Below are positions 2,805 through 14,879 of a stretch of DNA of 18,181 nt, one piece after another. The stretch's first letter is position 1; the number at the start of each line of letters is the position of its first letter. Origin of the DNA: Fidelibacterota bacterium (lineage in GTDB: Bacteria; Fidelibacterota; UBA8477); assembly GCA_021734045.1 (NCBI GenBank), contig JAIPJR010000058.1, positions 1-18,181 on the forward strand, read 5' to 3'. The translations under genes were made by a program, and so were the position numbers. The notes beneath the pieces were generated by a model. The model saw only the letters and a program-made list of their open reading frames with translations. It ran no database searches and was not told the DNA's origin.

Positions 2805-4334
2805 TTACCCCCTGCCGCCAACCGTTATGGATGAAACCAGACAGCTGGGCATTCCCTGTGAAACGGGCACCATTTGGCCGTTTTTCCCGCAGGTCCAGCC
2901 GCCTTCAGATAGTTCAAGGTCATTGGCTACCATGGTGACCTCTTCGAGAACCTTTGGCCCATTTCCAATAATATTCACATCCTTAATCGGTGCCGTTACC
3001 TTACCATTTTCAATCAATGCGCCGGACTTCACATAAAATGTAAAATCTCCCGGACCGATATTCACCTGACCGTTGGTAAACTGGTCGGCGATAATACCAA
3101 ATTTCACATTAGAGACGATTTCCTCAAAGGTGTGCGGTCCGTTGAGCATGTAGGTATTACGCATCCGCGGCATGGGGTTATGTTTGAAGGATTGGCGGCG
3201 CCCATTTCCCGTGGGTTTCAGCCCATAATGTTTTGCTGAAATCCGATCGTGCAGATAGGTGCGCAGAATGCCATTCTCCACCAGGAAGGTTTCCTGTGAA
3301 GGAACACCCTCATCATCCACATTAATCGTTCCCCGGGTGTAGGGATTGGTGCCATTATCTACAATAGTCACAAAATCAGCGGCTACTTTCTTGTTCAGTT
3401 TTTCCGAGTAGATGCTGGTTCCAATGCGGTTGAAGTCGGCTTCCATACCGTGGCCGATTGCCTCGTGGAGCAGAATGCCAGCGCCCCCTGCTTTCAGCAC
3501 AACTGGTAGCTCACCGGCGGGTGAAGGTTGCGCTTCGAAAAGTTTAATGGTCCTGGCCACGACCTCTTTAGGCATCCGCTCCAGTCGTTCCGGTGTGAGA
3601 AACTTAAAGTCATCACGGGCTGAATAATCAAAATAATTGCTCTCCCGGCTGCCATTGTGTTCCGCAGTACAAAACGCGATGAGACGAATCATGGGTTGGT
3701 AGTCGGTAGCAAATTCCCCCAGCGAATTGGCAATTAGGATGTAGTTTTCACTATCACTGTAGCGCAACCCTGCTTTCACTACCCGGGAATCCTGCTGGAA
3801 AATGGCATCATTCACCGACTTGAGCATGCTCACCACATTCTGCACGCCCACATCTTCATAGGAGAGGTTGGTCTGGTAGTGATTGGTAAGTTTAATGGCT
3901 TTTAATTCCGTGGGGGGTACCCGTTTACTACCCGATGCAATATTGGCGGCGGTCCGGGCGGCAGCTTTCATACTGTTCAGGGATAAATCTTCTGTGAAGG
4001 AATACCCGGTTTGGTCGCCCTTCAGGACACGGATGCCCACACCCAACTCCACCTCTGTGCTGGCGGAATTCACGATATTGTCTTCGACCCGGATGCTGTT
4101 GGATAAGGTGTTTTGAAAAAAGATATCGCAATAATCACCCCCGTGCGCCAGTGCCTCGGACATCACTTTCCGGATAATTTCCGGGTCCACCCCAAATCGC
4201 TGGAAATAGAGTTCATGGGGCTGACTGCCACCTGCCATTCCGGCTAAGGTTTTTTGCATAAAGCCGGGAATGGTTGTCAATGCCAGTCCCGTTCCGGTAA
4301 CTTTTACGAAGTCTCGTCGACTCATAATCCTCAT
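2805..4334 (-). CDS. tldD: Tat-exported TldD-type zinc metallopeptidase
   Basis: The predicted product has 509 residues. The zinc motif HEAIGH (residues 290-295) gives two His ligands and the catalytic Glu, and Cys482 in 'TCGKNGQ' fits the third ligand known from E. coli TldD. The N-terminus is a twin-arginine signal: SRRDFVK at residues 5-11, then a hydrophobic stretch (about 14-30) and an Ala-rich cleavage zone. The start is set at the ATG at 4334, because AAGGAG (4346-4341) sits six bases upstream; a TTG further upstream at 4364 would lengthen the signal but has no such site. TldD is the catalytic partner of the TldE-like protein encoded 2 nt downstream. Cytoplasmic TldD is usual in proteobacteria; the Tat signal implies periplasmic action here, which is inference. 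Confidence 0.9.
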   Translation of the reverse strand: MRIMSRRDFVKVTGTGLALTTIPGFMQKTLAGMAGGSQPHELYFQRFGVDPEIIRKVMSEALAHGGDYCDIFFQNTLSNSIRVEDNIVNSASTEVELGVGIRVLKGDQTGYSFTEDLSLNSMKAAARTAANIASGSKRVPPTELKAIKLTNHYQTNLSYEDVGVQNVVSMLKSVNDAIFQQDSRVVKAGLRYSDSENYILIANSLGEFATDYQPMIRLIAFCTAEHNGSRESNYFDYSARDDFKFLTPERLERMPKEVVARTIKLFEAQPSPAGELPVVLKAGGAGILLHEAIGHGMEADFNRIGTSIYSEKLNKKVAADFVTIVDNGTNPYTRGTINVDDEGVPSQETFLVENGILRTYLHDRISAKHYGLKPTGNGRRQSFKHNPMPRMRNTYMLNGPHTFEEIVSNVKFGIIADQFTNGQVNIGPGDFTFYVKSGALIENGKVTAPIKDVNIIGNGPKVLEEVTMVANDLELSEGGWTCGKNGQMVPVSQGMPSCLVSSITVGGRG

Positions 4335-4518
4335 CTTTCGCTCCTTGTCCCGGTCCGTGTTCAAACTAACCAGGATCCGTTTGAGGTCAGACTACCGTGC
4401 TTTCAGTTTTGGGATAAAAGAATCAGGTTGAGAGCCCGGAGTCAGGCGTTAATTCGTTATCAATGTGCCGTGCTTGCGCGGCTTTGACCCGCCATTAATA
4501 TGATGGTTGTCACATTTA

Positions 4519-5883
4519 TTAACGCACAATACTGATTTTTTGGGTCACAAAGCTGGTCTGACCCGTTATGCTGGTAAATTGAAACTGGCAATGATACACA
4601 CCGGAGCTGAGTTGTGCTGCATCAACGTGCCAATTATGGGACCCAGCGCTTAACGTTCCCAATTTCTGCGCCATGACCCGTTGTCCTCGCAGGTTGTAGA
4701 TATTAACCCACACCTGGCCGCCCTCAGGAATGGTAAAGGTGGTACGGGTGGACGCGTTGAAGGGATTGGGAAAAATGTTATCAATAGTGAATTCGGCCGG
4801 CAGTGTGGCTGTGTCGGTCTGTTCTAAAGCCGTGGCGCTTTCCGGGAAAAAGGTGTAGGCGACACCGCCTTTGGCGAACCAAGCCTGGGAAATGCTGGAT
4901 TTGTTATACACATAACTGTAGCCATTACTGCGGGCCGGATCGTGAACGATGGGTTGGCCGTTGCTGGTGAATCCGGCCAGCATGAGCAGGTGTCCGCTGT
5001 AGAGTGGCTGTCCGATGGACATTGCAATTCGCCCACCAGTGGCCAGGACCTCATAGGCCTCACTCCAGGTGCGGTACCGGTTTACATAGCCTTCCACACC
5101 ATACCGGCTGGCGCTTTGGACTGCGCGGGGCCAGACACCGAAGATGTGATAGTAGGGGTCGTAGGTATCCCACGCAAATTCCAGCATATCCACCGTTTGG
5201 CCAAAACTGGCCAGAATCATGGCGGTTGTGGTAGGCGAGCAGATGCGCCCCCCGATCTCCGGATCTACACCGATTTGGTAGATAAACTGGGTGGGGACAA
5301 AAATCTGGGGTGGATTATCGGCAATGATATTCGTCAGGCTATAATTGTCTGTGGAGGCTTCATCGCTCACCTGCATGGAAAAACGACGCAGGGTGGGTGA
5401 TTCGATGCTGGTGTTATCCCGTTGGAACTCCACCTTGGCCTGCCATTCTGTGCGGTCATAATAGAGAATACCGGTATCGATGTTGATATAACCGCCGGCA
5501 TAGCTGGTGGTCTTGGTGCCTGACCAATAATTGGTCTGCCAGAAGCCGATTTCCAACCACGGTGACCAGCCGGTATTCCAGGGAAAGCGCACAAAAACAC
5601 GGAATCCGGCCTGAGATTCGGGTGCCGAACCATTCCAGGAGGCGATGACTTCATTAAAGGGGTGTTCCATTTCCACCGGGTTAAAAATCACATAACCGGA
5701 GAGGGCATTATCGGCAAGCTGAATATTCTCGCCAGTGTTGATAACACCTTGTGAGGAAGCCACTTGCTGCCATACGGTATTGGCATCCGGCCAGGTGAGA
5801 AATTGGTCCGGGTGGGCGCCATACGCGACAGCAAGTAAAAGGGAAAGTGAAATAAAAAATCGGTTTAATTTATTATAAAACAT
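4519..5883 (-). CDS. Secreted C39-like cysteine peptidase with T9SS-type C-terminal sorting domain
   Basis: The 454-residue protein starts with a signal peptide (hydrophobic 9-21, likely cleaved after AYGA). Residues about 30-180 form an unassigned beta-rich domain. The peptidase_C39_2-like domain covers about 195-345: Cys215 in 'GGRICSPTTTAM', His298 in 'SGHLLMLAGF' and Asp315 in 'IVHDPA' are the presumed catalytic triad. Residues 365-454 are a FlgD-Ig/type A sorting domain, with 'IFPNPFN' (370-376), 'VNIYNLRGQRV' and a basic end 'KISIVR'. Such tails direct export by the type IX system and attachment to, or release from, the cell surface. Substrate unknown. The neighbouring genes suggest no shared pathway. 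The start has only a distant AGGA. The C39 and sorting-domain calls are by motif, and a bacteriocin-processing role is not implied because no ABC transporter is fused or adjacent. Confidence 0.84.
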   Translation of the reverse strand: MFYNKLNRFFISLSLLLAVAYGAHPDQFLTWPDANTVWQQVASSQGVINTGENIQLADNALSGYVIFNPVEMEHPFNEVIASWNGSAPESQAGFRVFVRFPWNTGWSPWLEIGFWQTNYWSGTKTTSYAGGYINIDTGILYYDRTEWQAKVEFQRDNTSIESPTLRRFSMQVSDEASTDNYSLTNIIADNPPQIFVPTQFIYQIGVDPEIGGRICSPTTTAMILASFGQTVDMLEFAWDTYDPYYHIFGVWPRAVQSASRYGVEGYVNRYRTWSEAYEVLATGGRIAMSIGQPLYSGHLLMLAGFTSNGQPIVHDPARSNGYSYVYNKSSISQAWFAKGGVAYTFFPESATALEQTDTATLPAEFTIDNIFPNPFNASTRTTFTIPEGGQVWVNIYNLRGQRVMAQKLGTLSAGSHNWHVDAAQLSSGVYHCQFQFTSITGQTSFVTQKISIVR

Positions 5884-6151: not shown

Positions 6152-6281
6152 TATTCAGCCCCTTTTTTATTTGGTTCGAGCGTGGCTATCTTAAACAATT
6201 GTTTCTGGTATTAGAAATAATTTTTACATTCAAGTAAATGCTAAAATATATCTCGCTATACCCCATAAATGACAATAAGTG

Positions 6282-6800
6282 ATGCCGAATCTACCAAAAC
6301 TCCAAAAAAATGAGACCCCCGACTTGTTTGACGAACGCGGTTTTACACTCATGGAAACCATCACGGTATTGGTGTTGATGGCTGCCCTGGCAATAGTGAT
6401 TGTGCCCAACATGTTCTCTTCTTATCAGTCCTTCATACGGTCCTCAGCCCTTAATCAGGTAGGAAGAGATTTGCGTTACGCTCAGGAATATGCTATTTCC
6501 CGAAGGGATACGGTCTGGATTGCCTTCAATGTAGGCGGAAATTCCTATGCTGTGTATGGCGGGGATTCAACCGCGGTGAAGACACTGTTAAAGAGCCATA
6601 CCGAAGGAGACTGGGTCGTGCAGATGGGGCAGCGTGAATATAAGTACCTCACATTGGTTGACGCAGATTTTGACGGGGGCTCAGAATTGGTATTTGATAA
6701 TTTTGGCAATCCGATTTTGACAAGCGACGGATTACTGGAATTTGGGGATGGCTCTACGATCACAGTGCAGGCGGAAACGGGAAAGGTATCAATTCCCTAG
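6282..6800 (+). CDS. GspH/FimT-like minor pseudopilin (first gene of pilin operon)
   Basis: This 172-residue protein carries a type IV prepilin leader: cleavage after Gly20 in 'DERG|FTLMETITVL', Glu at mature position +5 (Glu25), and a hydrophobic helix to about residue 45. The body resembles GspH/FimT/FimU: 'LRYAQEYAISRRDTVWIAF' and a beta-rich tail ending 'ITVQAETGKVSIP'. These pseudopilins sit in the minor-pilin complex that primes pilus assembly at the inner membrane and caps the fibre. An in-frame stop at 6276-6278 limits the start to GTG 6279 or ATG 6282; the ATG is preferred, though no ribosome binding site is clear. It is the first of four closely spaced genes, and its position matches H (FimU) in the order H-I-J-K. 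Confidence 0.86.
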   Translation: MPNLPKLQKNETPDLFDERGFTLMETITVLVLMAALAIVIVPNMFSSYQSFIRSSALNQVGRDLRYAQEYAISRRDTVWIAFNVGGNSYAVYGGDSTAVKTLLKSHTEGDWVVQMGQREYKYLTLVDADFDGGSELVFDNFGNPILTSDGLLEFGDGSTITVQAETGKVSIP

Positions 6801-6807
6801 GTGTAAT

Positions 6808-7293
6808 ATGCGGAAATCCAAAACAAACCAGGGAATCACAATCAGCGAACTCGTCATTTTCATTGTCATCGCCGGTATTGCTTATTTGGCATTGATGCGT
6901 GTATTCATTTTTGCCAATGAGCTCTCAATGAAAAATGAAGTACAGACGACGATGATTCAACTGCTCCTTGATCGGTTGGAAATTGTAAAAAGTAAACGAT
7001 TTGATGAAAAGCTATACCCCAGTTGGTCAACCACTCTGGGTCCGGACACCGGTGAGCTAGCGGAAGCGGATTTTGATGATTGCGACGATTACCAACACTA
7101 TTTGGAAACCAACATCCCGGGTCACGAGGGCTATCAGCGTTACACACGTGTATTTTATGTCAATCCGGCTATCAGCATTAATGACAGCATTCCCAATGTG
7201 ATGTTTATGAAAAAAATCATCGTTCGTGTAAGTCACCCCGATTATGGGAATTTGGATATGAGTTCATTAATAGCCTCACGCTCCGGACTGTGA
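6808..7293 (+). CDS. GspI/PilV-like minor pseudopilin
   Basis: This is a 161-residue protein with a weakly conserved but recognisable prepilin N-terminus: Gly9 then 'ITISELVIFIVIAGIAYLAL', with Glu14 at mature +5. Cleavage after Gly9 gives a class III-type short leader with basic residues (RKSK). The rest is a soluble domain with 'SHPDYGNLDMSSLIASRSG' at its end, similar in position to the strand after the GspI/PilV alpha-spine. The ATG at 6808 lies 7 nt after the previous stop; an upstream start at 6742 would overlap the preceding gene and destroy the leader, so it is rejected. Second of four tightly packed genes; by order and size it fits I/PilV. The role is to bridge H and J/K in the tip complex. 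Confidence 0.8.
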   Translation: MRKSKTNQGITISELVIFIVIAGIAYLALMRVFIFANELSMKNEVQTTMIQLLLDRLEIVKSKRFDEKLYPSWSTTLGPDTGELAEADFDDCDDYQHYLETNIPGHEGYQRYTRVFYVNPAISINDSIPNVMFMKKIIVRVSHPDYGNLDMSSLIASRSGL

Positions 7294-7295
7294 GT

Positions 7296-7847
7296 ATGAG
7301 CAGTATGCTGCATAAACGATTGGTAAAGCAACTCTCTCCAGGCTACACACTCATGGAGCTTGTAGTGGTTATGCTCATCATTGGGATTGTAGGCAGCATG
7401 AGCTTGCGGGTGTTAGCCAATATTTCCAAAGTTTATGAAAATGTCCTTATTCGGAGCACGCTGGTAGACGAGAGCCGCACGGCTGCACTGCGGTTCTATC
7501 GGGAAATTAAGACGATTCCGTTTGCCACGTCCCTTTCAGTGGCCGAAGAAAAAAGCGTTGCCTGGGGACTGCATTCTGGGAAAGCGTATACCTATAGCCT
7601 GAACGGCACCACCTTGCAGCGAACCGTAGACAGCGGGTCACCGGTAGTCCTGGCAAGTCATTTGGATGTTACCAACTCTCGTTTTTACTACTTTGATTCA
7701 ACGGGAACGGAATTGACGACGTTGCCCCTGAGTGCTGCGGATCGCCAGAAGGTTCGCCTCTTAAGCTTTCAATTTAAATTTTCCCTCAGTGGTGAGGACT
7801 ATTGGATTGGTCACGCCCTGTTTTTGTCCAATTTACGGAAACATTAA
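7296..7847 (+). CDS. GspJ/PilW-like minor pseudopilin
   Basis: This 183-residue prepilin-like protein is processed after Gly16 in 'LSPG|YTLMELVVVMLIIG', with Glu21 at mature +5 and a long hydrophobic helix followed by 'LRVLANISKVYENVLIRS'. The C-terminal domain is beta-rich ('YTYSLNGTTLQRTV', 'RLLSFQFKFSL'), the pattern of GspJ/PilW. The first possible starts are GTG 7290, which overlaps the previous stop, and ATG 7296; I use the ATG, but the overlapping GTG is possible. Third gene of the operon, in the J/PilW position, ending one base before the next start. Confidence 0.82.
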   Translation: MSSMLHKRLVKQLSPGYTLMELVVVMLIIGIVGSMSLRVLANISKVYENVLIRSTLVDESRTAALRFYREIKTIPFATSLSVAEEKSVAWGLHSGKAYTYSLNGTTLQRTVDSGSPVVLASHLDVTNSRFYYFDSTGTELTTLPLSAADRQKVRLLSFQFKFSLSGEDYWIGHALFLSNLRKH

Positions 7848-7848
7848 A

Positions 7849-9765
7849 ATGCAGGCTGCTTCAAAATTTCGGAAACTTTTGTCCCTCTCTTCCGGTGGTC
7901 ACCGTGGATTTGCGTTCATTGGGGTGAGTATTATGCTCATTCTTCTTACTGCTGTTATTTCCATATTCCTGTTTACGACTGTGAATCGGATGGGTGCTGG
8001 TTCCACAGACTATTATATGGCGAATCGAGCGTATCAGTTGGCGTTTTCCGGTGCCGAATACATGTTTGAGATGATTCGAACTGCTTCACTGAATGTTGGT
8101 TCGTATGGCCCTTACCAGATGGATGGTGGCACATTCACGATTAAAATCAACTATGTTGAAGCGGATAAACTGAAAATCACCATTACTGGCCGAATTGATG
8201 AATATGAACGGGTTGTCGCCTATTATGCCAAGGTGGAACAGTCGGGGGTCTTTCCCGAATTACCCCTGGTTAATTATGCACCGGACTGGTGGAAATCCGG
8301 TGCGCCACAACTATTGGTGATTGATGACCCGGCACGATTTTCCGATTCGTACATTGCCGGAAATGCGAACCTCAAGGGGACAAATTTTGGAAGTGAAACT
8401 TACATGCAGGTGGGATATCTGTATAATAACCCCCGCCATGGATTAATAGCTGCCGCGCTGGATCAGATTCCCACGAATCGAACCATTGATGCTGCCTATT
8501 TGCAGCTGGCAACGCAAGATGGTACCGATAATTTAGCGCACAATATTGCGGTTCACCGTCTTACGACACCATGGGATGAGTATACCGTAGCCTGGCGGAA
8601 AAATAAGCCCTGGTCTACGGATGGGGGGGACTATATAACCCCTGCCGAAGTGATTGATCAGGCTCAGTGGACCGGCTCCAGCCTGTATTATTCATGGGAT
8701 GTGACCAGCTCCCTAAGCGATTTTTATAACCTGATTATCCCCAATTATGGATGGTTGCTAAGGTTCACAGGTTCTGAAAACGAATATATTGACTTTCATA
8801 CCCGAGAGAGCGGCATCAACCGTCCCCGGTTGGAGATTTACTACTCCGGTGATCCCGAGCCGGCAGGATTGGAAATTAAACCGACAGCCAGTTTGTACGG
8901 AAATCTGTATGTGGGCGGAAATGTGGTCGCCCGGGATGGTGCTACCATTGGTGATCCACCCTTGGATCCGGTGGTTATTTACGTAAGTGGTGAGGATACC
9001 GTCTATAGCAATGAATTTGATACATACTTCAGCTGGGGCAGCCTGGCTTATCCGCCCACAATATCTTTTTTGGATTCTACTGTTGTGGACAGTGTTGACT
9101 CGCTGCTTACTGTCGCTGAAAACATATCCTCCAGCAGTGGCAACAAAATCTCCGGTAGTCGGTCATTTACAGTGCAAACGCTAGATTTCAATGATTATGC
9201 GGAGAATACGCTGTTTGTGAAGGGTGACATTTCCATGACCGGTACCACCGTACTCTCCATGCCCTTTGAGGCTCCCGGAAAAATGGTGGCTTCGGGTAAT
9301 ATTTTGATGGAGAACCATCCCGGTGGAGGTGTCACCATCGGGGATAATATGATCTTTGTTGCTGGTGGCAATATCATTATTACCGGCGATGCTCAGTTCG
9401 GAGTTGATCACTCAGCTACAATTCCGGCGGAACGTGAGGTAACCACGAACCAGCTCTGGGCTCGGGATTATTTAAATACTGGTACAAATGGTTATATCAC
9501 CATTCAGGATAATGCCGAAGTCTGGTCGGTTGTCATATCGGATCGGACAATTCATCTCAGCGCAGATTTGTACGGCGCGGCATTCACGCCCGATACATTG
9601 GATATGAGTTATGCTACTACTTATCTGGAAGGGGCATTCTGGTGTGGACAGGTTGTGGGGGATTCTCTGGGACTGGGAATTTACAATCTTACCAATATCT
9701 ACCCTCAGATCATATTTGCCGGGAAGTCCGTGTCCGTTGATGATTTCGGTTTGGTCGAGGAATAG
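7849..9765 (+). CDS. PilX/GspK-position tip pilin with DNRLRE and beta-helix-like cargo
   Basis: This 638-residue protein begins with a prepilin-like segment: basic leader, Gly20|Phe21 in 'GHRG|FAFIGVSIMLILL', a hydrophobic helix to about 45, and 'MANRAYQLAFSGAEYMFE' typical of PilX/GspK. Mature position 5 is Gly25, not Glu, a known feature of the K-type subunit at the pseudopilus tip. Residues about 155-333 match the DNRLRE domain: 'SDSYIAGNANL..GTNFGSE', 'IDAAYLQL', 'TTPWDEYTVAW', 'YSWDVTSSL', 'NYGWLLRF', 'FHTRESGINRPRLEIYY'. Residues 345-638 repeat 'YGNLYVGGNVVARDGA', 'LFVKGDISMTG' and 'MVASGNILMENH', suggesting a beta-helix or bactofilin-like polymer domain (compare DUF7305 in PilX-like proteins). 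It ends the operon, 1 nt after the previous stop, in the place where K or PilX sits. Its role as a tip adhesin or scaffold is inferred. The start is the ATG at 7849; an upstream frame extension overlapping the previous gene is rejected. Confidence 0.82.
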   Translation: MQAASKFRKLLSLSSGGHRGFAFIGVSIMLILLTAVISIFLFTTVNRMGAGSTDYYMANRAYQLAFSGAEYMFEMIRTASLNVGSYGPYQMDGGTFTIKINYVEADKLKITITGRIDEYERVVAYYAKVEQSGVFPELPLVNYAPDWWKSGAPQLLVIDDPARFSDSYIAGNANLKGTNFGSETYMQVGYLYNNPRHGLIAAALDQIPTNRTIDAAYLQLATQDGTDNLAHNIAVHRLTTPWDEYTVAWRKNKPWSTDGGDYITPAEVIDQAQWTGSSLYYSWDVTSSLSDFYNLIIPNYGWLLRFTGSENEYIDFHTRESGINRPRLEIYYSGDPEPAGLEIKPTASLYGNLYVGGNVVARDGATIGDPPLDPVVIYVSGEDTVYSNEFDTYFSWGSLAYPPTISFLDSTVVDSVDSLLTVAENISSSSGNKISGSRSFTVQTLDFNDYAENTLFVKGDISMTGTTVLSMPFEAPGKMVASGNILMENHPGGGVTIGDNMIFVAGGNIIITGDAQFGVDHSATIPAEREVTTNQLWARDYLNTGTNGYITIQDNAEVWSVVISDRTIHLSADLYGAAFTPDTLDMSYATTYLEGAFWCGQVVGDSLGLGIYNLTNIYPQIIFAGKSVSVDDFGLVEE

Positions 9766-9826
9766 CCAATTCCCTCACTTCAGGGCGATCTGGGGTACCA
9801 AAATTTTTTATCAGATAGAAAAATAC

Positions 9827-10285
9827 CTATGGTCTGAACTTGACCTCGAAATTGTAATCAGGGTCTTTGAGGGCGAAGCCCGGTGTGTACGTTGAATCGG
9901 GTGGCAGGGTATAATAGAGGTAAGGATTGTTGTTGGGGTTATAGAGGATTTCCTCTTCCGAGAACAGGTCTACCGGTCTCAAGCCATTGTCCAGAATGGT
10001 ATTCTGTGACCATTCGGTAGTAAGCTGACTGTCGGGTGGTGTGGCAGGAAATCCGGCCACTTCACCTTCCAGCAACATTTGGTAATAATAGTTGGCGAAT
10101 CCGGTTTTCAGCGTTACCAGATTCATTTTGGTTTTGGATATCCGCGCCTGGACCGTGAATTGATTATACCGCGGCAGGATAATAGACGCCAGGATAGCAA
10201 TGATACCCATAGTTGCCACCAACTCCAGAAGTGTAAAGCCCCTCTGTTTCTGGTGGCGAAGTCTGGTGTTTTTATCCTGACTCAT
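9827..10285 (-). CDS. Type IV pilin-like protein
   Basis: This 152-residue protein has a classic leader: Gly16|Phe17 in 'QKQRG|FTLLELVATMGIIA', with Glu21 at mature +5, followed by a hydrophobic alpha-helix and 'ILPRYNQFTVQARISKTKMNLVTL'. The C-terminal region is rich in Tyr, Asn and Pro ('YNPNNNPYLYYTLPP') and has no Cys pair, so there is no disulfide D-region of the Pseudomonas or Neisseria type. It converges on the minor pilin operon (61-nt gap). A terminator lies between this gene and the pilin gene before it, so it may be less abundant. The ATG at 10285 is chosen; a TTG 21 bases upstream is possible, and no good binding site supports either. It may be a minor shaft pilin. Confidence 0.84.
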   Translation of the reverse strand: MSQDKNTRLRHQKQRGFTLLELVATMGIIAILASIILPRYNQFTVQARISKTKMNLVTLKTGFANYYYQMLLEGEVAGFPATPPDSQLTTEWSQNTILDNGLRPVDLFSEEEILYNPNNNPYLYYTLPPDSTYTPGFALKDPDYNFEVKFRP

Positions 10286-10340
10286 GGTTTTTGTGTCACA
10301 GTCCAACTTTCGAAAATTGGTGAGCAGTTCAGTGGTAAAG

Positions 10341-10374
10341 AGAGAAAAAAGCCCCAGAAAGAGTCCGGGGCTTT
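10341..10374 (-). terminator. Rho-independent terminator between two pilin genes
   Basis: Read on the - strand, AAAGCCCC pairs with GGGGCTTT (an 8-bp perfect stem at 10374-10367 and 10355-10348), with a possible GA/TC extension into the loop, followed by a T tract (TTTTTTCTCT). It lies 43 nt after the stop of the 10417-10845 pilin gene and 56 nt before the next pilin gene. This makes the upstream two pilins a transcription unit of their own, with at most partial read-through. Confidence 0.85.
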
Positions 10375-10416
10375 CACGCTTTAGCAGGATTTAGTTATCC
10401 TCACTTTAAGAAACTA

Positions 10417-10845
10417 CTACCGTGCTGTCCAGGTTCCTAAGGTGAAGGTGGTACCTGTGGTGTCATATGTCATATAGTAATCGATACCAGAATCCGTGAA
10501 ATCGGCATCTGAATTACCATCATACAGGAAAGTATCAGGATCAGCACTAGATCCAGCCGCAAAGCCGAGTTCATTTGAAGATTCTTCAACAAGATCTGTT
10601 AACGTGAACGAATTGTTGGGAGGATAGCTTTTGGCTCCATTGGAAGCCAACTGCTGCAGACCATACATCCGTAAAGCGCTGTTGATTTCTACCCGAAATT
10701 GCGCACGTGTCTTGCTTTTCGCTGTGTCTGTAAAGTCAAACAGTTTCGGCACAGCGTAGGCGGCCAACACACCCAGGATAACCATCACAGTGATGAGCTC
10801 GATCAGGGTGAAGCCTTTGTTTTTTCTTGTCTTTGTAAGCATCAT
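10417..10845 (-). CDS. Type IV pilin, candidate major subunit
   Basis: This is a 142-residue prepilin: Gly11|Phe12 in 'RKNKG|FTLIELITVMVILG', Glu16 at mature +5, then a hydrophobic helix ending near residue 35 and 'AVPKLFDFTDTAKSKTRAQFRVEINSAL'. The small Cys-free globular part is rich in Thr, Asp, Gly and Tyr. Two features fit high expression: AAAGGGG (10856-10850) just upstream of two tandem ATGs (10845, 10842), and a strong terminator after the gene. The spacing slightly favours the second ATG. The gene follows another pilin gene by 50 nt. Assignment as the major pilin is an inference from these signals, its small size and the conserved leader, not from a specific family match. Confidence 0.88.
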   Translation of the reverse strand: MMLTKTRKNKGFTLIELITVMVILGVLAAYAVPKLFDFTDTAKSKTRAQFRVEINSALRMYGLQQLASNGAKSYPPNNSFTLTDLVEESSNELGFAAGSSADPDTFLYDGNSDADFTDSGIDYYMTYDTTGTTFTLGTWTAR

Positions 10846-10895
10846 GTTGCCCCTTTCTTAAGGATTTTTTCTTATTACTTACTTATTTATTTTCA

Positions 10896-11426
10896 TTAAA
10901 GTTTTAACTGGATGTTGAACAATGTGGAATCCTGGACATCCCAGATTTTGATCCGGGCAGGTTGAAAATTGGAAATATACACGGTCCCGGCAGCGTTCTG
11001 ACCAAAGGTAATGCTGGCTTCCTGCTCCCGTTGTATTTTATAGGGCAGATCGCCAAAGGGAGAGACCGGCGGACGTTTGCCGAACATATCCCCGAACTTC
11101 ACGGTCTGAGTGGCACCGTTAAATTCATAGGTGATCACAGCCGTGGAATCACTAACATCCTGTGCTGATGCTAACGCAGCATCAACCTGAGGGACAGGAT
11201 TAGCTCCCGATGCCCGGGAGACCACTGCATCGTAATGCACTTTAATCACATTGGCGATGGTATTGAGATTGTCCGTTGTTTTTACCGTTTTAGACTGGGC
11301 TTGCTGCTCCAGAAAATAGGGAATCGCCAGTGCGGCCAGGGTGCCCATGATACTCATGCTCACCACCAGCTCCATCAGGGTAAATCCCCTTGTCTTCCTG
11401 CTTCGCTTAATTTTCATCAATCTCAT
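10896..11426 (-). CDS. Type IV pilin-like protein (first of the - strand pilin genes)
   Basis: This 176-residue prepilin is cleaved after Gly14 in 'RKTRG|FTLMELVVSMSIMG', with Glu19 at mature +5. It has the usual hydrophobic helix, then 'IPYFLEQQAQSKTVKTTDNLNTIANVIKVHYDAV', and a Cys-free globular domain that includes 'MFGKRPPVSPFGDLPYKIQ'. The ATG at 11426 has AAGGAAG about five bases upstream; a longer frame from 11489 would put some 20 extra residues before the leader and is rejected. It is probably co-transcribed with the next pilin gene. A -24/-12-like promoter and a sigma-70-like alternative are visible upstream (see separate entry). Confidence 0.87.
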   Translation of the reverse strand: MRLMKIKRSRKTRGFTLMELVVSMSIMGTLAALAIPYFLEQQAQSKTVKTTDNLNTIANVIKVHYDAVVSRASGANPVPQVDAALASAQDVSDSTAVITYEFNGATQTVKFGDMFGKRPPVSPFGDLPYKIQREQEASITFGQNAAGTVYISNFQPARIKIWDVQDSTLFNIQLKL

Positions 11427-11461
11427 CACAACTTCCTTATTTGTTCTCAGGGTGTAATACG

Positions 11462-11477
11462 ACAAGAGTTGTGCCAA
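11462..11477 (-). promoter_or_regulatory. Possible sigma-54 (-24/-12) promoter of the pilin genes
   Basis: On the - strand TTGGCAC (11477-11471) is followed after four bases by TTGT (11465-11462). The -24 element is perfect, but the -12 GC is GT, a departure at a nearly invariant base. Transcription would start some 24 nt before the pilin ATG, leaving room for its AAGGAAG site. Just upstream, TTAACT-17-TATGAA is a sigma-70-like alternative. Sigma-54 controls pilA in several other bacteria. Suggestive only. Confidence 0.3.
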
Positions 11478-11591
11478 TTCATAAATCATTGAAAAACAAT
11501 AGTTAACGAAATATTGTAATTAAAGGAGTGTCACAAGAATGAACAGTATGTGTATCATAATGAAACACTTGCTGCTTTTTGATGCAGCCAA

Positions 11592-11720
11592 TTATGTTTT
11601 ACTGATGATCCAAATGGCAATCACGAGAAAATAGACCACGAAAAGAATTGCGTACATCCAGTTGGGATACTTCTTCTTGAATATGAGGTAATGCAATCCC
11701 TTCTCATCCGATCCAGCCAT
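11592..11720 (-). CDS. 42-residue single-helix membrane protein
   Basis: This short gene encodes 42 residues: a charged N-terminus (MAGSDEKGLHYLIFKKKYPN) and one hydrophobic segment (about 23-40, 'YAILFVVYFLVIAIWII'), ending SKT. AGGGAG lies five bases upstream of the ATG at 11720, supporting translation. The basic KKK just before the helix suggests an inner-membrane protein with its N-terminus in the cytoplasm. It lies 61 nt after the amidase gene in the same direction and 165 nt before the pilin genes, so it could be co-transcribed with either. I recognise no family. Tail-like small proteins of this form often accompany larger membrane complexes, but nothing here shows a partner. Confidence 0.66.
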   Translation of the reverse strand: MAGSDEKGLHYLIFKKKYPNWMYAILFVVYFLVIAIWIISKT

Positions 11721-11781
11721 AATAACTCCCTGGTTGATTTTTGATTTCGCTTAGTTTACAGGATGGGGTCTTCTGGTTCAA

Positions 11782-14700
11782 TTAAAACTTTTTCGTCTCC
11801 AGGTATTGGATTAAGCCCCGCATTAAAGCCGTCCGGGAACCGGGCTCCACACTCTCAAAAGGAAATCCCAATACGACTAAACGAAAATTCTGGTCAGGGT
11901 AAAAATACCCTGCTGGAAACTGGTTATCTCCATATCGAAATAGAACAACAGCATCCCGCCCAACCTGTAACGCATCTGGCGATTCAACAATATAGATGTC
12001 ATCGAACTGACCCTGATTGAATTGAAATTCAGGTAATTCAAGCGCCAACAGGGAGTCGGAGACGATCACATCTCCCGAGCGGTTCGCGTGGTCGGAGATC
12101 CACCGGAGATTTAAAACCGATTTAACAAAGCTGCGGGTAGAGTCGTTGGAAAATTCTCCCATCAACGGATCGGTAGCCACATAAGCACCAGAAATCAGCA
12201 CGCGCCGTTCGGCGGCTTTCAACATTCTCAGCCGTTGCTGCAGATTCTCCGGTAAGACGCGATACCGCACCTCGTTTGGTGGAACTAAACTGGTTTTAAC
12301 CGCGCGCTGCTCACCCAGACTCAGATCAAACAAGGCATAATCCACACTGAACAAAGAATCCGCAAGCCAGCCATCGCGGGTTACCGAACAGAATGAGTAA
12401 CCATTCGCCAGGAGCGCCTTTCCATGAATGCGGGTGTAATCACGGGTGTTGCCGGGACGGGTCAGCGTCTCCTCATTGGCGTAGCTGGAACCATGTCCCG
12501 GAAAGGCATTGGTGTGATACGGGACATGGGGATCGAAGGCATATTGCTCACCGGTAAAATTGATGTCTATGCGGTCGGCAACACCAGCATCAATGAAATT
12601 GGCCATCCCCATAAACTGGTCGGCTTCCATCACGGCCGGGCCGGAAACACGATCAAAGCCATCCACGATCAATGCGGTTCCCAGTGTGTCCACTGGCGCA
12701 ATCCCCACTGACAAAGTGGGAGAAGGAAAACTCTCACCGCCACCGTTCACGGCTGTTACGCGGAAACTATAGATTTCCCCCGGCGCCAGGTTTTTTAACT
12801 CAATCTGATGCTGTCCCACCAACTCACCATTGTCAAAAGCGGCGTCACCCAGTCGTGAATAAACCCGAAAGGCTTGTGGTTTCGCAGTGGGCTCCAGCGG
12901 ATCCAATTCTGGCTGCCAGCGCAGGAGTACCGTATCTGAATCGGTGAGCAGCGCTTCAAATTTTTGAATGGGCAACGGTTGCACCATATAGGGCATACCG
13001 TGCTGAGAACTGATGAACTTCAGCATTCCTTTGTAGATGGAACGCGCCACATCAAAACGAAATGCCGGATCGGAGGCGTATTTCATGTCGGTGAAATTTT
13101 GATGCGAAAGCAATTCCAGCAAAATGCCCGGCATATTGGGGCGGGCGGCTTCACTATATAGCGCATCCATGAGTTGACGCCGTTTCCAGGTCGGGTCATA
13201 TTTTTTCCGAATATCCCGCACAATCTGGGTTTGCACGATATCCCCAAGATCCCGGTTAGCCAGGCGTGACATGCCATCGGGAAAATAGCGGGTGGAATCC
13301 ATGCCCTCCAGACTGTAAATCATGAGCGTACCTACCGTGGAGTCCGGCCCCTTGATACCGGCATCCGTGTGAAATGCCATGGAAACATCGATGGGAATGC
13401 CCAGTCCTTTCACCAACCGGTTGTTGGTCGGTCCAAAAGGGGCACCATAGAGATAATTGGCGTACTCAGCACGACTCTGGTAATCGTCCCGATAGTCATA
13501 TTCATCCTCATTAAGAACATAGACCAGCGTGTCCGGCATGCCGGCATACTGGAGGTAGTAGCGACTGCCTTCGGTGAATTTAGGGCGCCCGCTGGTGCGA
13601 CCATTACGCATCACAATCCCCATCCCACCACCGAAGCGGACCGCGTCGGCGGAGATGACTTTTCCCGGAACCATGGCGTCATTCATCAATACAACCGCCC
13701 CCGAGTTTGGTGAATAGCCGGTGGCAAACCGGAATTTTCCCAAATACAACCAGGTGTTCCCCCCAATACTCTGATTCACGCGAAAATCGGTAGCACCCCC
13801 CAAATGCCGCACCTGGTAATGGACCTCCGACGAGCTGCTGTCGGTTCTACAATAGGTTACATACACAGCATACTCACCCGTTTCCGGGATTTGTGGAATC
13901 CAGTGAACGCTGGCAGAAGCCAATGTATCGGTTCGGGTCACGAGTTGAGCGCCCCGTCCAAAGGGATTGAAATTGGCGGGGTAGGGTGGATTTCCTACCG
14001 CGAATCCTACCGAATCACCCACTTCCCAGATGGGAGCACCCCCCATTGTCTGCGAAATCTTCAGGTTGGGCTTATTGCCGGTCGTGCTGGCACTGTCATT
14101 ATCAATAATCACTTCATGGGTCTGGATATCCCGCTCCCGGGGAATGAAAACATGCGCCCCGGCATTTTCCAGCATGGGTGCCAGATAGGGGATGACAAAA
14201 GCATAGGGAAGCAAATCTTCAACGGTTTGGAATAGCCGGGGACGCTGCCATTCCCACACATCTTTCCGATTATTGTAATACCAACCATGACTGGGCCACA
14301 CCACAATATTCCGTCCCCAGAGACCAAATTCCGGAACCGTGGATTTGCTTAAATTTTGAACAATTGGTACCGGACGGTTGCCATTTGAAAGGGGCATGCG
14401 TAAACGATCATAACGCTCGCTGCCAGAGCGGAAAATGTTGGGAATGAGCTGTTCCAGTGGAATTTCCAGTGAATACAGTTTTACGGTGTAATTCCGGAAG
14501 CGCCAGCCCAGGGTTTTTTTAATTGCGCCATACACCCGGGCAACATTTTCCTCCCGCCACGGAAGGTGGGAAAAATGTTCGCTGAAATAAATTTCCAGCA
14601 CCTGGATATCTGGTTTTCGATGCAGGCTGTCAATACTGGTAGGGATGGGTAATGGCACCGGTGTTTGGCTGATTTTGGTCGTTTGCAGCCAGCCATTCAC

Positions 14701-14862
14701 CCGGTTAAATGCAACCCGCGATTTTCGGTCCATTTGGCGAATGTGTGCAGGTGCCTCTTCTGTAGGAATAAAGCCGGCACACTGAATAAAAACCAACGCC
14801 AGAATGATGACCAGACCAATTCTGAATTGCCGAAAACTGTTGTCGAAATGAATCATCCCCAT
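11782..14862 (-). CDS. Envelope N-acetylmuramoyl-L-alanine amidase with inserted golvesin-like domain, Fn3 and GATase-like tail
   Basis: About 1026 residues (numbers below count from the possible TTG at 14868, 1028 residues). A hydrophobic segment at 17-30 ending in Cys30 could be a signal anchor or a poor lipobox (Gln at -1). The amidase_3-type catalytic residues are split: His194 in 'WPSHGWYY' and Glu217 precede 'FIPRERD' (241-247); His500 in 'AFHTDAG' and Glu585 in 'GILLELLSH' follow. Between them, about residues 270-415 match the golvesin C-terminal-like domain ('VHWIPQIPETGEYAVYVTY', 'TWLYLGKFRF', 'ADAVRFGGG'). Residues about 632-722 are fibronectin type III; 730-1026 a Rossmann-like domain ending 'VVLGFPFESVE'. 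Related Bacteroidota proteins are often misnamed xanthan lyase. It would cleave peptidoglycan stem peptides, but activity is unproven. ATGs at 14862 and 14856 are both possible; no clear binding site decides. Confidence 0.8.
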   Translation of the reverse strand: MGMIHFDNSFRQFRIGLVIILALVFIQCAGFIPTEEAPAHIRQMDRKSRVAFNRVNGWLQTTKISQTPVPLPIPTSIDSLHRKPDIQVLEIYFSEHFSHLPWREENVARVYGAIKKTLGWRFRNYTVKLYSLEIPLEQLIPNIFRSGSERYDRLRMPLSNGNRPVPIVQNLSKSTVPEFGLWGRNIVVWPSHGWYYNNRKDVWEWQRPRLFQTVEDLLPYAFVIPYLAPMLENAGAHVFIPRERDIQTHEVIIDNDSASTTGNKPNLKISQTMGGAPIWEVGDSVGFAVGNPPYPANFNPFGRGAQLVTRTDTLASASVHWIPQIPETGEYAVYVTYCRTDSSSSEVHYQVRHLGGATDFRVNQSIGGNTWLYLGKFRFATGYSPNSGAVVLMNDAMVPGKVISADAVRFGGGMGIVMRNGRTSGRPKFTEGSRYYLQYAGMPDTLVYVLNEDEYDYRDDYQSRAEYANYLYGAPFGPTNNRLVKGLGIPIDVSMAFHTDAGIKGPDSTVGTLMIYSLEGMDSTRYFPDGMSRLANRDLGDIVQTQIVRDIRKKYDPTWKRRQLMDALYSEAARPNMPGILLELLSHQNFTDMKYASDPAFRFDVARSIYKGMLKFISSQHGMPYMVQPLPIQKFEALLTDSDTVLLRWQPELDPLEPTAKPQAFRVYSRLGDAAFDNGELVGQHQIELKNLAPGEIYSFRVTAVNGGGESFPSPTLSVGIAPVDTLGTALIVDGFDRVSGPAVMEADQFMGMANFIDAGVADRIDINFTGEQYAFDPHVPYHTNAFPGHGSSYANEETLTRPGNTRDYTRIHGKALLANGYSFCSVTRDGWLADSLFSVDYALFDLSLGEQRAVKTSLVPPNEVRYRVLPENLQQRLRMLKAAERRVLISGAYVATDPLMGEFSNDSTRSFVKSVLNLRWISDHANRSGDVIVSDSLLALELPEFQFNQGQFDDIYIVESPDALQVGRDAVVLFRYGDNQFPAGYFYPDQNFRLVVLGFPFESVEPGSRTALMRGLIQYLETKKF

Positions 14863-14879
14863 CCCCAATTACAAATAAG

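Follow-up and report, generated by a model that had tools for sequence, protein, structure and literature searches.

In known T4F, K subunits cap the H-I-J-K tip and lack Glu5 (PMC9934059). GspK and PilX are both encoded by the fourth gene of their sets, lack Glu5, and are predicted tip caps, with a helical insert in GspK and a small pilin domain in PilX. Modular pilins are also a described kind, with 264 architectures reported (PMC8179133). In S. sanguinis, the large minor pilins PilC and PilB carry a non-pilin binding module (ConA-like lectin and vWA, respectively) grafted on a small pilin module; both are placed at the tip by modelling, where the grafted modules bind proteins and glycans (PMC8179133, PMC9934059). 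ComZ of Thermus thermophilus, whose gene sits among those of minor pilins, is a proposed tip pilin with Gly5 that combines a pilin-like domain with a large, DNA-binding beta-solenoid (PMC6561018). The founding CBM96 domain binds alginate via a basic groove and is ~30% identical to DNRLRE-domain members (PMC9971899).

The window, an 18,181-nucleotide stretch of DNA from a Fidelibacterota bacterium, contains an H-I-J-K operon. Judged from its sequence, the fourth gene encodes a pilin of the K position that carries a DNRLRE domain and ends in a beta-helix-like tail. The features are as follows.

6231–9828, no strand: divergence block covering H-I-J-K, from DNA identity with congener G001
6279–6800, forward strand: H subunit, FimU/GspH-like prepilin, from GspH PF12019, N_methyl, and ComGD/GspH-type leader matches
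6808–7293, forward strand: I subunit, PilV/GspI-position prepilin, from position and leader
7290–7847, forward strand: J subunit, PilW/GspJ-position prepilin, from N_methyl
7849–9765, forward strand: K-position modular pilin, 638 aa, from intact ORF, profile matches, and relatives
7909–8250, forward strand: pilin module, residues 21–134, mature Phe+1/Gly+5, alignable to the N-modules of K proteins that lack the insert
8251–8859, forward strand: inserted block with DNRLRE/CBM96, residues 135–337, from NF033679 and PF24517, missing in the sister-family K
8374–8838, forward strand: DNRLRE profile match, residues 176–330, NF033679
8860–9762, forward strand: beta-solenoid-like tail, residues 338–638, shared by K proteins both within the order and outside it
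9827–10306, reverse strand: prepilin, N_methyl E 5.6e-8
10417–10845, reverse strand: prepilin, major-pilin-like, N_methyl E 3.5e-9
10896–11489, reverse strand: prepilin, N_methyl E 5.2e-7

The H, I, J, and K genes overlap or abut, with a 4-base overlap between I and J, and K is the last of the four. Both congeners and the sister family have the same order, which agrees with the initial annotation of K as the fourth gene of an H-I-J-K operon. The H subunit matched GspH PF12019 with E 6.5e-4 and 20.6 bits, slightly below the cutoff of 21, and N_methyl with E 4e-3. The J subunit matched N_methyl with 21.3 bits, barely above the cutoff of 21.2, and the I subunit gave no family match in Pfam or NCBIfam. 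In the sister family, three prepilins lie in the place corresponding to the three reverse-strand prepilins of the window, directly upstream of HIJK (synteny, L089). Positions 4519–5883, on the opposite strand just upstream of the tip operon, encode a C39-like protease that bears a T9SS type A sorting domain. Positions 11782–14868, also on the reverse strand, encode a protein of 1028 aa in which Golvesin_C and fn3 occur together with an amidase-like stretch.

The leader of the window K reads HRG/FAFIGVSI, with Gly at mature +5, confirming the K-type leader with Gly for Glu that was noted earlier. The congeners have Tyr at this position, and Glu5 was found in none of the 17 aligned K proteins. 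Profile searches of the window K returned no match to PilX_N, to GspK (Pfam, NCBIfam), or to the Pfam N_methyl profile, so its body is neither PilX nor GspK, as had been proposed; among the 17 relatives, PilX_N matched one, at E 0.04. Residues 176–330 matched DNRLRE NCBIfam NF033679 with 86.8 bits (cutoff 34, E 1.6e-24), and residues 165–330 matched CBM96 (Pfam PF24517) with 49.5 bits (cutoff 26, E 5.7e-13). The predicted DNRLRE domain is thus present, over both curated cutoffs. The match lies far beyond what chance would give, and each of the two congeners independently yielded one over cutoff (103.5 and 97.2 bits). The initial annotation had placed the two regions at residues 155–333 and 345–638. 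These boundaries proved close, with alignment to insert-free relatives giving an insert at ~135–337. A class III leader and a helix-plus-sheet pilin module are both present in the window K, and its extra domain, DNRLRE/CBM96, is of a type not specific to pilus biology.

Single-sequence AlphaFold2 modelling of residues 21–134 gave one 57-residue helix followed by an antiparallel beta-sheet, with a mean pLDDT of 64.2. The full-length model of the window K, also from a single sequence, reached a pLDDT of 38.8 and was too poor for use. A fold search with the N-module yielded only generic cystatin/NTF2-like helix-on-sheet matches below trust level. Pilins were absent among the matches listed, and an archaeal pilus chain at Foldseek rank 32 was uninformative either way. 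Sequence searches against solved structures with the window K, the K profile, and the DNRLRE profile found nothing significant. The N-module model therefore agrees with a pilin fold without proving one, and the pilin assignment rests more on the leader, the gene position, and the alignment with other K proteins than on the model.

The tail (residues 338–638) had been called bactofilin-like. In the window K itself, the profile search gave no family match in this region. The description is nevertheless reasonable from weak matches in relatives: Bactofilin matched the tails of 5 of the 17 aligned K proteins (best 7.4e-4) and DUF7305 matched 4 of the 17 (best 2.2e-3), all weakly, while YdcK solenoid, FapA, and MinC_C each matched in single members of this set. 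More distant K proteins matched DUF7305 at 2.8e-4 and 5.4e-4, and an ice-binding-like adhesive domain at 3.6e-6. Bactofilin, DUF7305, YdcK solenoid, FapA, MinC_C, and the ice-binding-like domain are, as far as is known, all beta-solenoid or beta-helix families. Because the weak matches in relatives all point to such families, the tail is likely a beta-solenoid.

The window K can now be compared with the described systems. Like PilC and PilB of S. sanguinis, it is a large minor pilin with a non-pilin module on a small pilin module. In contrast to them, its module is DNRLRE/CBM96, it has an additional beta-solenoid-like tail, and it is the K subunit of a diderm-type H-I-J-K operon and lacks Glu5, whereas PilC has the canonical Glu5. 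With ComZ it shares Gly at +5 and the pairing of a pilin module with a large solenoid-like region in a minor pilin set. However, ComZ lacks DNRLRE, its solenoid precedes the last pilin strand whereas that of the window K follows the pilin module, ComZ binds DNA, and the two proteins show no detectable sequence similarity. The window K is also the fourth gene of its set and without Glu5 as in GspK and PilX, yet neither of these has DNRLRE or a solenoid. Its inserted domain falls in the profile family of TM6-N4 of the alginate lyase Dp0100 (CBM96/DNRLRE), over the Pfam and NCBIfam cutoffs; unlike TM6-N4 and its kin, the carrier here is a pilin and not an enzyme or S-layer-type protein. The initial annotation knew of no described tip pilin with DNRLRE, and we likewise found no relevant description of DNRLRE joined to a pilin in the literature searched, although Dataset S1 of PMC8179133 could list one. 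The general principle is less new, as grafted modules on pilins are already known from that article. The modular pilin as such is thus already known, and what we did not find described is, as read from sequence, the K carrier, the DNRLRE/CBM96 module, and the order of pilin module, module, and solenoid. Because K pilins do not match the N-methylation motif, the published survey by this motif (IPR012902, PMC8179133) would tend to miss them.

To place the insert in an evolutionary context, the K proteins of relatives were compared. The genus comprises three genomes, and the two congeners share the K architecture of the window, with 653 and 664 aa and ~41–42% identity to the window K. In all three, the K pilin carries the sole DNRLRE domain found in the genome, at genome completeness of 82–92%. 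In the sister family f2, K proteins of ~440–470 aa have the pilin module and the tail without anything between them, in the same H-I-J-K order. Separate alignments of the modules gave N-modules of 134–162 aa, differing mainly by leader length, and tails of 299–319 aa. Against the insert-free K proteins, only the window genus has the extra block of 203–218 aa. The insert is also missing from the K proteins of families f9, f16, f17, f28, and f20. In the tree, the three DNRLRE K proteins formed one clade with a support of 100/100, while the branching among families was poorly supported. Given the insert-free K proteins of these six families and the single supported DNRLRE clade, the domain was most likely gained in the window genus rather than lost elsewhere. 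One further candidate relative, L002, was rejected, its match being a chance stretch in an unrelated protein. Of 245 genomes of the phylum scanned with NF033679, 86 gave matches, 28 of them over cutoff. At the top DNRLRE loci examined outside the genus (L097–L123), the displayed ORF begins like that of a secreted protein or lipoprotein and lacks a pilin leader, although for a few loci it may differ from the DNRLRE ORF.

Other K proteins of the phylum carry a different domain. LamG (Laminin_G_3, PF13385), of the ConA-like lectin/glucanase superfamily, was found well over cutoff on ten K proteins (L069, L070, L071, L072, L073, L077, L078, L079, L085, and L090) from families f22, f11, f24, and f6. 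At four of these loci (L071, L072, L077, and L078), the neighboring I pilin also has LamG. In the f22 K proteins, LamG apparently lies inside the tail, and the 901-aa K of L072 contains three LamG-matched stretches. An alpha-L-fucosidase gene, matched at E about 1e-118 to 1e-120, adjoins the large K pilin in 4 of the 6 f22 loci (L070, L073, L074, and L085). On the evidence of these profile matches, carbohydrate-binding-type modules have repeatedly been grafted onto the tip set in this phylum, and DNRLRE is one instance. Additionally, locus L081 (G212:C102) contains two large K-like solenoid pilins of 544 and 524 aa in tandem, with no visible H, I, or J between them.

Our best reading of the window K is a tip adhesin for polysaccharide, a built-in ligand-binder, and we regard this as reasonably probable. 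The reading draws on the tip-capping role of K subunits without Glu5 in known T4F and on the place of DNRLRE beside the alginate-binding CBM96, and it is strengthened by LamG on K pilins from further families of the phylum. The earlier proposal of a built-in tip adhesin thus stands as the most likely interpretation from these precedents, with both the tip site and the binding being predicted. DNRLRE domains in S-layer and other secreted proteins may, by comparison, be structural. The domain could be a ligand-free spacer, or a stability domain, that keeps the solenoid clear of the fiber. Secreted proteins, S-layer-type ones among them, contain DNRLRE domains to which no function has been assigned (PMC9971899), which is compatible with such a role, as is a tail that is as conserved between congeners as DNRLRE (43–44% versus 40–41%). 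However, the sole DNRLRE copy found per genome sits exactly on the tip pilin, and a lectin-like domain is grafted on the same subunit in other families. We consider a spacer unlikely.

The resemblance to ComZ raises the question of transformation. The K protein could form a DNA-receptor tip in which the solenoid tail binds DNA and DNRLRE is a spacer or accessory, given that ComZ, a proposed tip pilin, unites Gly5 with a DNA-binding beta-solenoid (PMC6561018). ComEC is present in the window genome and its relatives, making this role conceivable, yet ComEC also occurs in 10 of 14 control genomes and is weak evidence. No ComZ chain appeared among the sequence or profile matches, and a DNA receptor would leave the recurrent LamG and DNRLRE grafts unexplained. 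A DNA receptor is, in our view, quite unlikely, and the polysaccharide adhesin is retained as the preferred reading.

The machinery that would carry this tip was then considered. In the sister-family genome G004, a single contig holds HIJK, three further pilins, a secretin, a PilB-type ATPase, PilC, and a prepilin-peptidase-like gene, together with two PilT/PilU ATPases of 445 and 413 bits (cutoff 319). A corresponding PilT-PilT-regulator-PilD-PilB block lies on contig C112 of the window genome, apart from the contig of HIJK; the PilD assignments were made from sequence reading, without a profile match. From the synteny in G004 and the matching C112 block, the home of the tip set is likely a retractile type IV pilus. 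Service in a type II-like secretion pseudopilus, with K as a large GspK analogue, is very unlikely: the secretin scores similarly against GspD and PilQ, and the genome has GspE/GspF-like genes at other places, but two PilT-type retraction ATPases over cutoff occur in the syntenic G004 cluster and in the genome's own C112, and K has no helical GspK domain. The suggestion that K acts in place of PilY1 gained little, as PilY1 (PF05567) had no match in 40 relatives, yet the control genomes were likewise without a match. The window genome also encodes a second type IV pilus cluster, L091 (G000:C117), with a 585-aa K-like pilin at 3413–5170 that has no family match. At 9566–12445 of the same locus, a PilQ-like gene is followed by one for a lipoprotein-like product of 959 aa that contains Big_1 and invasin D3 repeats. 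L093 (G000:C54), also of this genome, holds a third GspE/GspF-like set accompanied by a pilin.

DNA identity between the window and congener G001 changed sharply at the limits of the operon. It was ~85% up to position 6231 (75–94% per 100-base step), ~53% inside the block, and ~86% from 9828. The flanking proteins PmbA, TldD, the C39 protein, and the next pilin were 92%, 96%, 89%, and 92% identical, respectively, whereas H, I, J, and K were 46%, 52%, 43%, and 41% identical, respectively. G001 and congener G002 diverge evenly, with 62–87% in the flanks and 54–76% in HIJK. Both have a gene of 164–175 aa 3' of K that is missing from the window; these genes (L095 10956–11450 and L096 14314–14841) encode small, secreted-type proteins with no Pfam match. 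A search for repeats at the block edges found nothing beyond short chance matches. Based on the sharp borders, the conserved flanks, and the even divergence of G001 and G002, the window lineage most likely received H-I-J-K as one block by cassette replacement. Diversifying selection alone hardly explains borders this sharp around a divergence that spans the entire operon and its upstream edge. The main caveat is an assembly chimera mistaken for a real swap, as all genomes are fragmented and probably metagenome-derived assemblies. However, in the window as in G001, both edges fall inside a single contig, they coincide with the operon limits, and G001 and G002 mutually agree, making a chimera highly improbable.

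Together, these observations suggest how the polysaccharide adhesin might work. The ancestral K of the order would have consisted of a pilin module and a beta-solenoid tail, as the architecture of relatives indicates, and in the window genus a DNRLRE/CBM96 beta-sandwich appears spliced between the two. The class III leader and hydrophobic helix would be processed and K would join H, I, and J in assembly, as other K subunits do, while the absence of Glu5 and its bulk would restrict it to the tip. There, DNRLRE would probably be the head that binds a ligand, namely a polysaccharide, acidic or otherwise, of a surface, a biofilm, or a neighboring cell. Pilus extension would present this head, and PilT-type retraction would pull on the bound surface. 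Replacement of the H-I-J-K block, presumably by recombination, would alter tip specificity while keeping the adjacent major-type pilins. Tentatively, and as something quite possible but short of probable, we propose that H-I-J-K is an exchangeable tip cassette, in which K and sometimes I takes plug-in sugar-binding-type domains for a job done elsewhere by PilY1, and which is recombined as a whole set while its neighbors stay.

Herein, a carbohydrate-binding-module family joins the list of pilin-borne domains and is placed on the K subunit. The presence of LamG, DNRLRE, or neither at one position across the phylum allows a test of whether grafting and whole-set swapping are the means by which tip specificity evolves. 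The same phylum-wide pattern makes testable how diderms may adhere without PilY1.
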